From: Bradyrhizobium lablabi
Lineage (GTDB): Bacteria > Pseudomonadota > Alphaproteobacteria > Rhizobiales > Xanthobacteraceae
Reading direction: 5' to 3'
Length of the DNA: 64,000 nt
Assembly (NCBI RefSeq): GCF_900141755.1
Contig: NZ_LT670844.1
Span: 6,172,501-6,236,500 of the forward strand
The translations under genes and the position numbers were made by a program. Under the pieces are notes generated by a model that saw only the letters and a program-made list of their open reading frames with translations, was not told where the DNA came from and did not search any database. Position 1 is the first letter of the stretch; every line of letters begins with the position of its first letter. Of the stretch, positions 12,127-40,044 are shown one piece after another.

Positions 12127-12402
12127 TCACACCTCCTCATGCTTGCGAAGATCACGGGCGTGATCGAAACGACCGGCCTGCAGATCGGCGCCGCTGACGG
12201 GAATCTCGGGAAGCGCCGCCTCCGCCAGAATTTCCGCGGTGATATCGCCGACCGAATTGTCCGCGATTTCATGAATGAAGCTGATGTTCCTGTATTCGCC
12301 GGAGGCGATCCGCGAGACCACTTCGCGCCGGGTCACTTCGGGATCGACGATCGCCTCGCGACCGCGCCGCCCATAATCGATCATCACGACGAAATATTGC
12401 AT
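12127..12402 (-). CDS. hypothetical protein under S24-repressor operators
   Basis: A 91-residue protein starting at MQYFVVMIDYGRRG; a GTG 30 bases upstream is an alternative start. It is acidic and mixed alpha/beta, with GREAIVDPEVTRREVVSRIASGEYRNISFIHEI in the first half. No signal peptide or membrane helix is seen. I recognise it only as a type of short hypothetical common in Bradyrhizobium. Its promoter overlaps two copies of the 15-bp operator that is also found three times in front of the S24 repressor gene, so it is very likely a target of that repressor. Confidence 0.65.
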   Translation of the reverse strand: MQYFVVMIDYGRRGREAIVDPEVTRREVVSRIASGEYRNISFIHEIADNSVGDITAEILAEAALPEIPVSGADLQAGRFDHARDLRKHEEV

Positions 12403-12450
12403 CGCAGGCACGCTCTCTTTGCCCAGGTCCACGCACCCGGGGCGCCGGCG

Positions 12451-12501
12451 ACTATTTCCGAAAATCAGAAGCTAGTCAAGCTAAAATTCTGAAAAACAGA
12501 A
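12451..12501 (-). promoter_or_regulatory. promoter with two S24-repressor operator copies
   Basis: On the minus strand TTGACT (12479-12474) and AATAGT (12456-12451) are separated by exactly 17 bases. An operator-like sequence TTCCGAAAATCAGAA (12456-12470) lies in the spacer, and TTCTGAAAAACAGAA (12487-12501) lies just upstream of the -35. Each agrees with the perfect operator TTCTGAATTTCAGAA at 12-13 of 15 positions. Repression by promoter occlusion is inferred. Confidence 0.65.
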
Positions 12502-12556
12502 AAACTACATGGCCTGACCTGAGTTGGCCCTGGCCCGGCGAGAATCAGGCCCCGCC

Positions 12557-13201
12557 TCACTTCGAGGCCCCCTTGGCGCCCCCGCCATGCGTCTTGGCCG
12601 CCTTCCGCGCCCGGCCGGCGGCCTTGGCCCGCAGCCGCTCGATCTGGCCCCGCGGCAGCGTGACGCAGATTTCCCCGATCCATTCGAGTTTTACCCCGTT
12701 GATCGGCTTGGCGTTGAAGCTCGTGAGGTTGACGACGCTCGCGGACTTTCCGCGCTCGATGGTTTTCAGGTAGCGCTCGCCGGTCTTCAGCCGGACCGCG
12801 GCCTCTTCGCCGTAGAAGCTCGAAACCGGGTGGCGCTGCTCCTTGAAAACCACGATGATATCGCCGTTTTCATACTTCGGCAGCATGGAATCGCCGGCCA
12901 CCTCGAAGGCGATGGTTTCCTCGGAAATCGGGAACGGCAGCTCGATCTCGCCGAGACCCTCGGGGGGCACCTGCTCGTGTTCCGGCTCGATCACCGCGCC
13001 GGCGCCGACCCGGCCCATGATCGGCACCGAATTCAGTTCGAGATAGTCGATAATGGGCTGGATTTCGCTCGCCTTGATCAGGCGGATCTCGGCCAAAATC
13101 TCCGAAACCGCGCCGGGGCGGACGCCCATCGCCATGGCCAGACCGCCCTTGGTCTTGCCCGGCTTCTCCAGCCCCCGTTCGATCATCCTGACATCCAGCA
13201 T
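12557..13201 (-). CDS. S24/LexA-type repressor with N-terminal HTH
   Basis: Starting at the ATG at 13201, the protein has 214 residues. Residues 15-60 form a helix-turn-helix (GLAMAMGVRPGAVSEIL). Residues 95-185 are an S24 peptidase-like domain with the catalytic Ser in GDSMLPKY (S105) and the Lys in RYLKTI (K146), as in LexA and lambda CI. An Ala-Gly pair in GRVGAGAV (A67-G68) is a possible self-cleavage site. The tail is Lys/Ala-rich. The predicted transcript start coincides with this ATG, so the mRNA may be leaderless; starts at 13210 and 13237 fall in or upstream of the -10. It is divergent from a GcrA-family gene and probably represses both sides. Confidence 0.88.
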   Translation of the reverse strand: MLDVRMIERGLEKPGKTKGGLAMAMGVRPGAVSEILAEIRLIKASEIQPIIDYLELNSVPIMGRVGAGAVIEPEHEQVPPEGLGEIELPFPISEETIAFEVAGDSMLPKYENGDIIVVFKEQRHPVSSFYGEEAAVRLKTGERYLKTIERGKSASVVNLTSFNAKPINGVKLEWIGEICVTLPRGQIERLRAKAAGRARKAAKTHGGGAKGASK

Positions 13202-13208
13202 GGGGTGC

Positions 13209-13237
13209 ATACTTCTGAATTTCAGAAGCGAATGCAA
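13209..13237 (-). promoter_or_regulatory. promoter of the S24 repressor gene
   Basis: On the minus strand TTGCAT (13237-13232) and AAGTAT (13214-13209) are 17 bases apart. The perfect operator fills the spacer. The expected start point, seven to eight bases after the -10, falls on the A of the ATG at 13201. Confidence 0.55.
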
Positions 13238-13285
13238 TTCCGATTTTCAGAAATCGGACTTGACATTTATTTCGGAATATCAGAA
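13213..13285. promoter_or_regulatory. three-operator control region
   Basis: Three 15-bp sites share one consensus: TTCTGAATTTCAGAA (13213-13227, a perfect inverted repeat), TTCCGATTTTCAGAA (13238-13252) and TTCGGAATATCAGAA (13271-13285). The last two each match the first at 13 of 15 positions. Centres are 25 and 33 bases apart. The array lies between the divergent S24 repressor and GcrA-family genes, much like the three-operator regions of lambdoid phages. Confidence 0.75.
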
Positions 13286-13290
13286 ATTAT
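13260..13290 (+). promoter_or_regulatory. candidate promoter of the GcrA-family gene
   Basis: A perfect TTGACA lies at 13260-13265. The -10 is weak: AATTAT at 13285-13290 after 19 bases, or AGAAAT after 16. The third operator copy occupies the spacer. Confidence 0.4.
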
Positions 13291-13321
13291 CCGGCGTCAA
13301 CAGGCTCCGGAGCGCAAGCGC

Positions 13322-13855
13322 ATGCAATCGACAGACTGGGCGCCCGAGCATTCGGAAGCGCTGGGCGAGCATCTCGCCAGGGGCATGTCGTTTTCGCAGG
13401 CTGCAAAGGCGCTCAACGCGAAATTCGGCACCGCCTATTCCCGCAGCGCCGCGATCGGCCGGGCCAAGCGGATGGGATTTGCCGCTGCTCCCGAGCGGCC
13501 GGACGACCCTTTCAGTCCTCCGCCGATCGCGAAGACGCCGCGGCTCGAAAAACCGCGCCAACGCCACGTCCCCGAGTTCATGCGGCCGATGCCGGCCTGG
13601 AAGCGCAAAAAAATGCCAAAACTCCGCTGTGTCGAAATCGTGCCGCGCCATCTCTCGCTGTTCGATCTTGAGCGCGGCGATTGCCGTTATCCCTATGGCG
13701 GCGACGAAGAGGGCGAGGCGGTCACGTTTTGCGGCCACCCGAAGCGTCCGGGCTCGAGCTATTGCACGGCGCATTTTCATCTGACGCGCGGCCCCGGCAC
13801 CGCCGCGGAACGCGCCGCCGGCACCGTCCTGCTTCGGCTGGTTGCGGCGGCATGA
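13322..13855 (+). CDS. GcrA-family regulator
   Basis: I start the gene at MQSTDWAPEHSEAL (177 residues), because the frame upstream runs antisense through the repressor gene. The N-terminus is a GcrA-like DNA-binding helix set (EALGEHLARGMSFSQAAKALN, then SAAIGRAKRMGF, residues 8-55). The C-terminus has the family signature DCRYPYGG, then FCGHPKRPGSSYCTAHF (about 120-160). Canonical GcrA controls CcrM-methylated promoters through sigma-70. This divergent copy next to an S24 repressor and a DUF6456-like gene is more likely a phage-derived paralogue than the cell-cycle gene. Confidence 0.8.
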   Translation: MQSTDWAPEHSEALGEHLARGMSFSQAAKALNAKFGTAYSRSAAIGRAKRMGFAAAPERPDDPFSPPPIAKTPRLEKPRQRHVPEFMRPMPAWKRKKMPKLRCVEIVPRHLSLFDLERGDCRYPYGGDEEGEAVTFCGHPKRPGSSYCTAHFHLTRGPGTAAERAAGTVLLRLVAAA

Positions 13856-13901
13856 GGCGCAAGCGGCATCTTTCAATCGTCAACTTCCAGGGAGTACTGC
13901 A

Positions 13902-14453
13902 ATGGCACGGGCAAAACGCAACAGATCGCAAAAGGCCGCACGAGCCCATGACCGGCGATCCCGAGATTTGCCGCGCAACGCCGAGGTGGCGGCGGTCGAA
14001 GTGGATGATCCGCTAGCGCTGGAGCCCGGCGAAAAGATCGTCACGCTGCGCTCGATCCGCAACGATCCCTTGGGCCGGCTGCACTCGCATCGCCAGATCG
14101 ACGAGGCGCAATATCAGGGCGGCCGGGCGTTTCAGGACGATTGGGAGAAGGCCGAGCGCGGCCCGCGCGCGGTCGATCCGACGCGGGAATATGTCGACGG
14201 CGGGCAGACACGGGAGCCGATCACCGAACGTCAGCGCAAGGCCGTGCTGCGGCTCAACCGCGCCGAACGCGAACTCGGCGCCGACGGCTCGGCGCTGGTG
14301 CGTGAGGTTTTGGTGCTCGGCCTGTCGATGGAACAGATCGGCCAGCGGCGCGGCCTGCGCGCCCAGCGCTGGATCGACTATTTCGCGCGGCGATTTCGCG
14401 AGTGCCTGGACCGGCTGGCGCTGATCTATGGGTTTGCGACGGAGAAAAGGTAG
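13902..14453 (+). CDS. DUF6456-like HTH protein
   Basis: A 183-residue basic protein with a GGGAG ribosome-binding site, 46 bases downstream of the GcrA-family gene on the same strand. The first 40 residues are Arg/Lys-rich and probably disordered. The middle has LGRLHSHRQIDEAQYQGGRAFQDDWEKA (about 58-90). The C-terminus has SMEQIGQRRGLRAQRWIDYFARRFRECLDRLALIYG, which resembles the sigma-like HTH domain DUF6456 seen in phages and prophage remnants. It probably acts with the GcrA-family protein in one transcription unit. Exact role unknown. Confidence 0.65.
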   Translation: MARAKRNRSQKAARAHDRRSRDLPRNAEVAAVEVDDPLALEPGEKIVTLRSIRNDPLGRLHSHRQIDEAQYQGGRAFQDDWEKAERGPRAVDPTREYVDGGQTREPITERQRKAVLRLNRAERELGADGSALVREVLVLGLSMEQIGQRRGLRAQRWIDYFARRFRECLDRLALIYGFATEKR

Positions 14454-21195: not shown

Positions 21196-21359
21196 AATTC
21201 AAACGCGGCGTCGCGCGACCCGTCGGCGCCATCCGGATCTACGAATCGGAGTTTTTCAAAAACCTAATTTGTTGAAGCGGATCAACGTGATTTGGGCCGT
21301 CCAGTCCCTTTTGCAAAAATATTCTGGTTTTCGATTCACCCAAATCACTTCTAGAACTG

Positions 21360-21760
21360 TCGCCGTCTCGTCCCACTCGAGGGGCGTATCGCGATCGTCA
21401 CGGACGCGGGATGGGATGCGGTGGACGCGGCAGCGCTATTGACGAACAGCGCTTAAGCGGACGGCGAAGGCGTGTGGTCCTGACACCCCGACGCTGGTGT
21501 CAAGTTCGCGGAACGCAAGTTTCGCGGATGACGGTGGCAAAAGAGCCCGGTCACCGGGGAGAGCACGAAATAAGCCGTTAAAACCATTGCGTGCGGGAAT
21601 GCCGGGATGTTCCGGTGGACTCGTGGTGACTAACGCGCGTGTTTACTACACTACACGCGCGGCTGCGGGTGCATCGGCGCCCGGCATTCCCCACGCCCTC
21701 ACGGGGCGGAGAATTCAGCACAACTCGGGCGCATCGCGCCGCGAGGGCGCGGAGCCATAT
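21360..21760. repeat. long dispersed intergenic repeat, degenerate copy
   Basis: The block starting near TCGAGGGGCGTATCGCGATC, through GGGATGGGATGCGGTGGACG and AAATAAGCCGTTAAAACC, to GCCCTCACGGGGCGG matches from memory a long high-copy repeat in Bradyrhizobium and relatives. This copy appears degenerate, with parts missing after GGCAGCG. It fills most of the gap between 20992 and 21883, where no gene is supported. Confidence 0.55.
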
Positions 21761-39207: not shown

Positions 39208-40044
39208 TTAAGGAAGTGGCGCGCCGGCGTTGGAAATCATCGGATTATCAGTGTTCACCGGCGCCAGCTCGCTGGCATTGCCATCGCTCAAGAACTTGTC
39301 GAGCGTGGCCTGAATCCTCTCTTTCGCGGTATCGGGGCCGCGGTCGCTCATCCAGGTGTGCTGAAATTCAGTGTGGACGATATCGATGCCGTCCGCCTTG
39401 GCCTGCTGCGGGGTCGGCAGAACGCCGGGATCGGTTTTGAAATTCGGGTCCTTTGAGCGGAACGACAGGATCTTCAGTCTGTCATTGAGCACGAAAGGAA
39501 CGCGCAAATTATCCAGCGTGACCACTTTCGCGCATAGCTCCGGATGGTGCTTGGCGAAGTACATGGCGATATCGCCGCCATTGGAATGTCCGACCAATGT
39601 CAGGTGATCGTAGTCCGCATTCGGCCGCAGTTCCTTGAGTTGCCCAAGCACAAACAGGATGTTGGCTTCGCCTTTCTCATAGACGGCGCGCCGGCCGACA
39701 TAGGGCAGGCCGACCTTGGTCATCAATGGCGGGTCACTCGGGATATCCTGCTGGATGCTGGCAACGAGATAGCCCCTGGCCGCAAAGACATTGGCGAGGA
39801 ACGAATACTCGGTGTTCTTGACGGTGTTGCCGTTGCTGATGACGGCAACCGGAAGCTTCCAGTAACCGGCATTGGCCTTCATCTCATAGTCCCGGCGCAT
39901 CGCAAGGTCGACCGCAACCGGCCGCTGCCGCGCGGCGTCGAAGAAATTCAACGTCTCGTGTCGAATGCCCCATTTGCTGATGGCGAGATACACGCCCGTC
40001 GTGAGAGCGCAGACGCACGCCAGGACTGCAATTCCTCTCCTCAT
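39208..40044 (-). CDS. exported or anchored alpha/beta hydrolase
   Basis: About 278 residues starting at MRRGIAVLACVCALTT, with GGAGACG upstream; a GTG at 40062 is the longer choice. The N-terminal hydrophobic segment (about 3-21) should export or anchor it. The core has LPVAVISNGNTVKNTEYSFLANVFAARGYLVAS, the nucleophile Ser in LVGHSNGGDIA (about 150) and a possible His in FQHTWMSDRG near 235. It is of the dienelactone-hydrolase/acetylhydrolase-like type. Substrate unknown. Confidence 0.82.
   Translation of the reverse strand: MRRGIAVLACVCALTTGVYLAISKWGIRHETLNFFDAARQRPVAVDLAMRRDYEMKANAGYWKLPVAVISNGNTVKNTEYSFLANVFAARGYLVASIQQDIPSDPPLMTKVGLPYVGRRAVYEKGEANILFVLGQLKELRPNADYDHLTLVGHSNGGDIAMYFAKHHPELCAKVVTLDNLRVPFVLNDRLKILSFRSKDPNFKTDPGVLPTPQQAKADGIDIVHTEFQHTWMSDRGPDTAKERIQATLDKFLSDGNASELAPVNTDNPMISNAGAPLP

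Follow-up and report, generated by a model that had tools for sequence, protein, structure and literature searches.

Operators of a probably domesticated phage-type repressor locus in Bradyrhizobium recur at the promoters of a dispersed, probably structured RNA element

Within a 64,000-nucleotide stretch of the Bradyrhizobium lablabi genome (hereafter the window; G000:C1:6172501-6236500 of the 7.91-Mb single-contig genome G000), an S24-type repressor gene lies divergent from a GcrA-family gene followed by a DUF6456-like gene, with a small conserved gene downstream of the repressor under its own promoter. This locus carries five palindromic operators, and the same palindrome recurs elsewhere in the genome, where most of its copies mark the promoter end of a dispersed element, very probably a structured RNA. 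Our preferred reading, to which we give a probability of about 0.72, is that a phage immunity region was domesticated here and has been retained in Bradyrhizobium, with a single repressor that would keep its own operon, the small gene and the RNA copies switched off. An earlier reading of the same DNA, made from its letters (the original prediction), had described a lambda-like switch with five related operators, perhaps domesticated; it had missed that most of the sites outside the locus belong to the dispersed element.

When the window was scanned for TTCTGAATTTCAGAA with up to three mismatches, 11 strand-wise matches were found, which correspond to five palindromic places (12456, 12487, 13213, 13238 and 13271, each on both strands) and one off-target match at 39359. 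Windows shuffled 100 times gave a mean of 1.01 matches and a maximum of 5, and none reached 11. The five related operators therefore stand, as does the placing originally described for them, with three between the divergent repressor and GcrA-like genes and two at the small-gene promoter (Table 1). The pattern TTCNGANNNTCNGAA fits four of the five, the 12487 site deviating in its centre (TTCTGTTTTTCAGAA). Both non-repressor promoters share one arrangement, namely an operator, 7 bp, TTGACA or TTGACT, 5 or 3 bp, and a second operator in the spacer; read from the sequence, 7 and 3 bp separate the small-gene -35 from its two operators. The GcrA-side promoter was not called by the consensus scan, and its -10 is weak. 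Across G000, with the reversed pattern as the control here and in all later operator counts, TTCNGANNNTCNGAA occurs at 21 places versus 3 and TTCNGWWWWWCNGAA at 30 versus 0, five of these 30 being the locus and 25 lying elsewhere, which is not the random genome-wide frequency that would have told against the operators. Together the shuffles and the reversed patterns rule out chance palindromes. A looser pattern, TTCNGNNNNNCNGAA, gave 217 places versus 99 reversed, too unspecific to be used for the genome count.

Of the 25 TTCNGWWWWWCNGAA sites outside the locus, 21 lie at the promoter end of the one dispersed element, the remaining four (L098, L104, L121 and L123) being distant sites away from it. 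First-look candidates for this element numbered 95 to 107 in G000 (40 scored in one search and 4 in another), 121 in G200 and 125 in G172 (40 scored in each). The RNA copies were picked by similarity to the RNA part alone, with the operator playing no role in their selection. In G200 and G172, which are two other species, all 30 copies that were read, from the 80 scored, match TTCNGANNNTCNGAA with at most one mismatch (the reversed pattern in none of 30), and 29 of the 30 carry TTC.G.....C.GAA at one of two fixed positions; in G000, 13 of 40 copies have such a site (reversed control 0 of 40). For the best RNA copy of five further Bradyrhizobium genomes, the operator shows no mismatch in G138 and G122, one in G024, two in G086 and four in G105, and in G122 the element lies within ~0.6 kb of 15 of the 19 distant TTCNGWWWWWCNGAA sites. 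Judged from these sequences, the link between operator and RNA holds for eight genomes (G000, G105, G122, G138, G172, G200, G216 and G281) and not for every species.

The element promoters fall into three types. In type A the operator is followed after 7-8 bp by TTGAC or TTGCC and then TATAT, the operator-7 bp-TTGAC spacing being common to these promoters and those of the locus; in type B the operator overlaps the presumed -35; and in type C (G122 and G105) it lies further upstream, adjoining TGTCAAG. Searching 146 Bradyrhizobium genomes for an operator 6 to 8 bp before TTGAC yielded 334 matches versus 78 for the reversed pattern, in 126 versus 57 genomes. In G200, G172 and G216, three genomes chosen for having many such matches, the sites fetched from those listed outside the presumed locus (12 of 12, 5 of 6 and 5 of 6, respectively) have the RNA downstream in all 22 cases, three of them reaching it across a stretch with another repeat. 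We also observed in G200 (L310, L313 and L315) a Br-REP1-like palindrome stretch (GGAATCTCGAGATTCCGG) that splits the operator promoter from a second operator and the RNA. Many RNA copies (L126, L130 and L164, for example) also have upstream of them a palindrome resembling TGATTTGCCCGACGGGCAAATCA, and half of it, GGCAAATCA, is seen again between -35 and -10; it is possibly the site of a second regulator.

The consensus fold, drawn from 41 copies in seven genomes (43 were collected, and two, L099 and L324, were left out as the script found no start or end), comprises 84 pairs over ~350 nt. In this fold 97.0% of cells pair, against 92.0% in shuffles and 35-49% when the fold is slid; 26 pairs are changed on both sides (16.4 in shuffles), with 194 cells doing so (58.6 in shuffles). 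None of 500 shuffles reached any of five fold measures, a control that related copies can inflate, and the slid control retains that relatedness. The element is thus very probably a structured RNA. At gathering score, Rfam 15 matched only two tRNAs among 19 loci and nothing in the window, and a known Rfam family was rejected on this; one copy searched at E up to 5 gave four matches, all far under their gathering scores.

In other genera, none of 24 RNA loci (one per genome, of 42 matching genomes, many of the matches being partial) has an operator within one mismatch, and three stand at two mismatches from TTCNGANNNTCNGAA (control none). Two loci that proved to be Bradyrhizobium (L256 and L262) were removed from this set and, taken apart, show one and two mismatches. 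Most RNA promoters of the other genera (L254-L279 and L360-L378) show, by eye, an inverted repeat of about AGGATTATATTCCTA over the -10. Followed in three genomes, this repeat was listed at 19 places; blastn finds the RNA at 3 of them and inspection by eye at several others, while one site (L378) precedes a gene pair resembling RES/Xre by eye only; no cognate repressor for AGGATTATATTCCTA was established in these three genomes.

Conservation of the locus was followed in the best 80 of 84 repressor relatives in GTDB contigs, located through the repressor, 72 of which carry a Bradyrhizobium title. The small gene is present at all 80 of these loci, the GcrA-like gene at 76 and the DUF6456 gene at 75. 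Counted in 79 loci (one had too short a 5' flank), an operator with at most one mismatch stands at slot -83 in 67, at slot -50 in 74 and at slot -25 in 34, the reversed control giving 0 of 79 at each slot. At the small-gene promoter, two such sites are found in 49 of 80 loci, one in 26 and none in 5 (reversed control none in 80). The locus sites, whose absence from related genomes would have counted against the original prediction, are hence conserved. Residues A67, G68, S105 and K139 of the repressor occur in 80 of 80 relatives; we take A67-G68 to be the Ala-Gly cleavage bond and S105/K139 the Ser/Lys self-cleavage residues of S24 repressors. A family sample of 149 genomes gave a repressor match of at least 80% identity in all 7 Bradyrhizobium genomes, that of G086 with an internal TGA in the tool's reading; the best match outside Bradyrhizobium is 54% (G075). 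The GcrA-like protein diverges much faster than the repressor, with 34-65% versus 79-92% identity to the window's protein across L008-L087.

The repressor is 76% identical in four viral contigs. The longest, IMGVR_UViG_3300045931_000114 (49 kb, of which 20.7 kb were seen), has operators at -83, -50 and -25, the same offsets as in the window. On the far side of its repressor a small gene is preceded by two more operators, spaced 32 bp apart, and genes nearby match a phage integrase, exonuclease VIII, DNA methyltransferases and a DnaD-like helicase loader. The lambda-like layout and phage origin that had been proposed are thereby borne out. In cro's place this contig has a divergent 89-aa gene, which matched no family and is 'cro' by position only. 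Homologues of it, 65-70% identical, adjoin repressor relatives in L379, G120 (L200) and G075 (L202), and it has no match in the window or at the loci of the 80 relatives. That absence, and a GcrA-like gene whose start is 120-205 bp away from the repressor at every one of the 76 loci with such a gene, fit the earlier suggestion of a domesticated switch. To judge from its gene order, L379, a 4.5-kb contig with the repressor (89%), the small gene and the GcrA-like gene, in which the phage gene still separates the last of these from the repressor, is intermediate between the phage and the domesticated layout. In the independent prophage-like relative of G120, the repressor is 43% identical over residues 2-85 and the same palindromes stand beside its gene, which suggests that this kind of helix-turn-helix is tied to this site; in G075 a looser palindrome lies near the repressor relative. 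Seven INPHARED phage records match the repressor, the best at only 50.8% identity. As a separate observation, the window's own genome holds a prophage-like locus (L201, G000:C1:1314000-1333000) with a GcrA-like gene (PF07750 E 3.7e-18), an S24 paralogue and two related palindromes, TTCCGGATTTCGGAA and TTCCGATTTCCGGAA, 31 bp apart, a pair also found in the viral contig L388.

In the circuit that we propose, the S24 repressor would bind the TTCNGANNNTCNGAA sites, one of which lies in its own leader. An OR-like pair would flank the -35 of the rightward GcrA-like/DUF6456 promoter, the GcrA-like gene having taken the former place of the phage gene, and an OL-like pair would flank the -35 of the small gene. 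With repressor dimers on these paired operators, neither the two locus promoters nor those of the RNA would fire; once the repressor is lost, probably because it cleaves itself after DNA damage, the GcrA-like operon, the small gene and the RNA copies would all come on together. Damage is suggested as the trigger because the self-cleavage residues are conserved, and repression at type B promoters and at the spacer sites because of where the operator lies; from its position, the GcrA-like gene may likewise be under the repressor's control. Our guess is that the RNA, if transcribed, serves in defence or as an alarm and has a phage-linked origin. A wider version, which we put forward tentatively and would not bet on, makes the phage-derived, self-cleavable repressor the master of dozens of dispersed RNA gene copies, in an RNA family that repeatedly adopts the operators of resident phage-type or similar repressors (in other genera about AGGANTATANTCCT over the -10) and, freed once the repressor is gone, serves as an alarm or defence RNA across the genome.

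Several observations weigh against the domesticated circuit. In G000, 27 of the 40 scored copies lack the operator, the window's copy included; distant TTCNGWWWWWCNGAA sites lie near the element for just 1 of 2 in G138, 2 of 6 in G105 and none clearly of 4 in G024; and when the first operator-TTGAC match listed for each of 30 genomes was taken, 3 were at the RNA, 7 at the locus and 20 elsewhere. Repeat copies are not independent, and the high counts partly reflect descent. At the locus, slot -25 keeps its operator in fewer than half of the relatives, and 7 of 79 have at least 5 mismatches at slot -83 with at most one at most other slots. Lastly, type A copies have the operator ahead of the -35, a position that could point to activation. 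Several of the 20 matches elsewhere are another promoter cassette with a variant palindrome. Such a cassette recurs in L283, L288, L293, L307, L308 and L309 as TTCGGCGATACCGAA (or close), 7 bp, TTTGAC(C/T)CGTCGGGCAAA.., and canonical operators sit on similar cassettes in L247 and L292. A small open reading frame (MSDQ.SEL.EISKLNGDF..) that encodes a hydrophobic stretch also follows operator-TTGAC promoters in L222, L232 (G122), L246 (G105) and L284 (G197).

Many G000 elements without an operator, together with a phage relative of the same operator layout, would suit retained immunity and nothing more, in which the repressor shuts off incoming operator-sharing phages and its own operon, and the palindromes at the RNA elements are decoys, phage sensors or unrelated. 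We consider this unlikely, if still worth keeping in mind, as it leaves unexplained both the operator at two fixed promoter positions in 30 of 30 G200 and G172 copies and the conserved GcrA-like and small genes. The palindrome might instead be the element's own terminal or binding motif for spread, read by another protein, its likeness to the repressor sites being coincidence or shared ancestry, and type A homology does start at the palindrome. Yet it stands at three different places in subfamilies A, B and C, is absent from the same element at the 24 loci of other genera, most of which have another inverted repeat by eye, and equals the locus sites in form down to the degenerate positions, which makes this explanation improbable.

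A further alternative is that the repressor activates the type A element promoters. CI activates its own promoter, and since in type A 7-8 bp part the operator from the -35 below it and the spacer has no second intact site, these promoters, taken by themselves, could be read as repressed or activated. Activation in place of repression seems to us more improbable still, given that type B operators overlap the presumed -35, which suits repression, and that the locus promoters hold a second site within the spacer. It is very hard to credit that the locus is a prophage remnant like any other, with no function today: its phage relatives are clear, but the same gene set and operator slots recur in most of the 80 loci and the catalytic residues are invariant.

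Table 1. Positions in the window of the genes, promoter parts, operators and RNA copy, with the element-associated operator sites of G000
Feature	Position	Strand	Basis or remark
Small conserved gene, 91 aa, start ATG 12402	12127..12402	-	In 80/80 loci
Operator, inside spacer of small-gene promoter	12456..12470	.	Pattern scan
-35 (TTGACT) of small-gene promoter	12474..12479	-	Consensus scan, 9 of 12 with AATAGT at 12456-12451
Operator, upstream of small-gene -35	12487..12501	.	Pattern scan
S24 (CI/LexA-like) repressor, 214 aa	12557..13201	-	PF00717 E 3e-12 (Pfam), phrog_4 repressor
Operator, perfect TTCTGAATTTCAGAA, ends 11 bp before repressor start codon	13213..13227	.	Pattern scan
Operator, 7 bp upstream of GcrA-side -35	13238..13252	.	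Pattern scan
Probable -35 (TTGACA), GcrA-like/DUF6456 promoter	13260..13265	+	Read from sequence
Operator, inside spacer of GcrA-side promoter	13271..13285	.	Pattern scan
GcrA-family gene, 177 aa	13322..13855	+	PF07750 E 6.3e-31 (Pfam)
DUF6456-like gene, 183 aa	13902..14453	+	PF20057 E 4.1e-6 (Pfam), phrog_21451 E 8.6e-19
Window copy of the dispersed, very probably structured-RNA element	21362..21700	+	Operator position 21322-21336 degenerate, TTCTGGTTTTCGATT
Element-associated sites in G000	L099-L103, L105-L111, L114, L120, L122, L124-L129		L107 is a shortened copy

The identities first given to the S24, GcrA-family and DUF6456-like genes were confirmed by Pfam (Table 1), and two gene starts were corrected, that of the small gene to ATG 12402 and that of the repressor, which is more likely ATG 13201 than TTG 13237 because many relatives align from that residue. 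The repressor scores above the cut-off of PF00717, with HTH_3 and HTH_31 found only under theirs, and has no sequence match among solved structures. The DUF6456-like gene is probably co-transcribed with the GcrA-family gene, and the small gene gave no family in Pfam, PHROGs or NCBIfam. The original remark that phage structural and integrase genes are absent was examined by Pfam for the three nearest neighbours (a YNCE-like propeller, an ArsR-type regulator and a PALP enzyme), none of which is a phage gene.

Three known regulatory systems resemble this locus in part. With the GcrA cell-cycle regulator it shares the PF07750 domain, but the window protein scores 43.6 bits against a cut-off of 280 for the NF050816 equivalog and is fast-evolving (34-65% identity), and a prophage of the same genome also has a GcrA-like gene. 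An S24 repressor with self-cleavage residues and many genomic sites are likewise features of a LexA/SOS regulon; here, however, the lexA model gives 13.9 bits against a cut-off of 110.95, and the sites are mostly at RNA elements, not repair genes. The alphaproteobacterial LexA box is GTTCN7GTTC, of which the window holds 0 matches, and on this and the score a LexA/SOS regulon was ruled out. The lambda-type CI/Cro immunity region has in common with our locus its S24 repressor, a set of three operators that divergent promoters enclose, and a further operator group on the other side of the repressor, all present in a viral contig; what differs is that neither the window nor any of the 80 relatives has the gene in cro's place, a GcrA-like gene standing there instead, and that the operators recur at a dispersed element. 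The switch would work like a lambda- or LexA-type one, yet its lexA score falls short and the cro-place gene is gone.

For the element itself, the nearest likeness is to Br-REP1 and Br-REP2, dispersed intergenic short palindromic repeats of the same bacteria (PMC5082802); the available part of that paper describes short palindromes, whereas the element here has its own promoter, an operator and a ~350-nt fold, which that part does not describe. We recognised no description of this element or repressor in the literature searched, most subscription papers lying outside the search, so that absence from print is not established. Set beside these systems, the operator on a dispersed structured RNA seems to be what is new. 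If the circuit is as proposed, it would link repressors domesticated from phages with GcrA-family regulators and with non-coding repeats that are dispersed, a phage operator carried along by a repeat would have given rise to a genome-wide regulon, and an RNA element with dozens of copies in nitrogen-fixing and other soil bacteria would gain a testable role.

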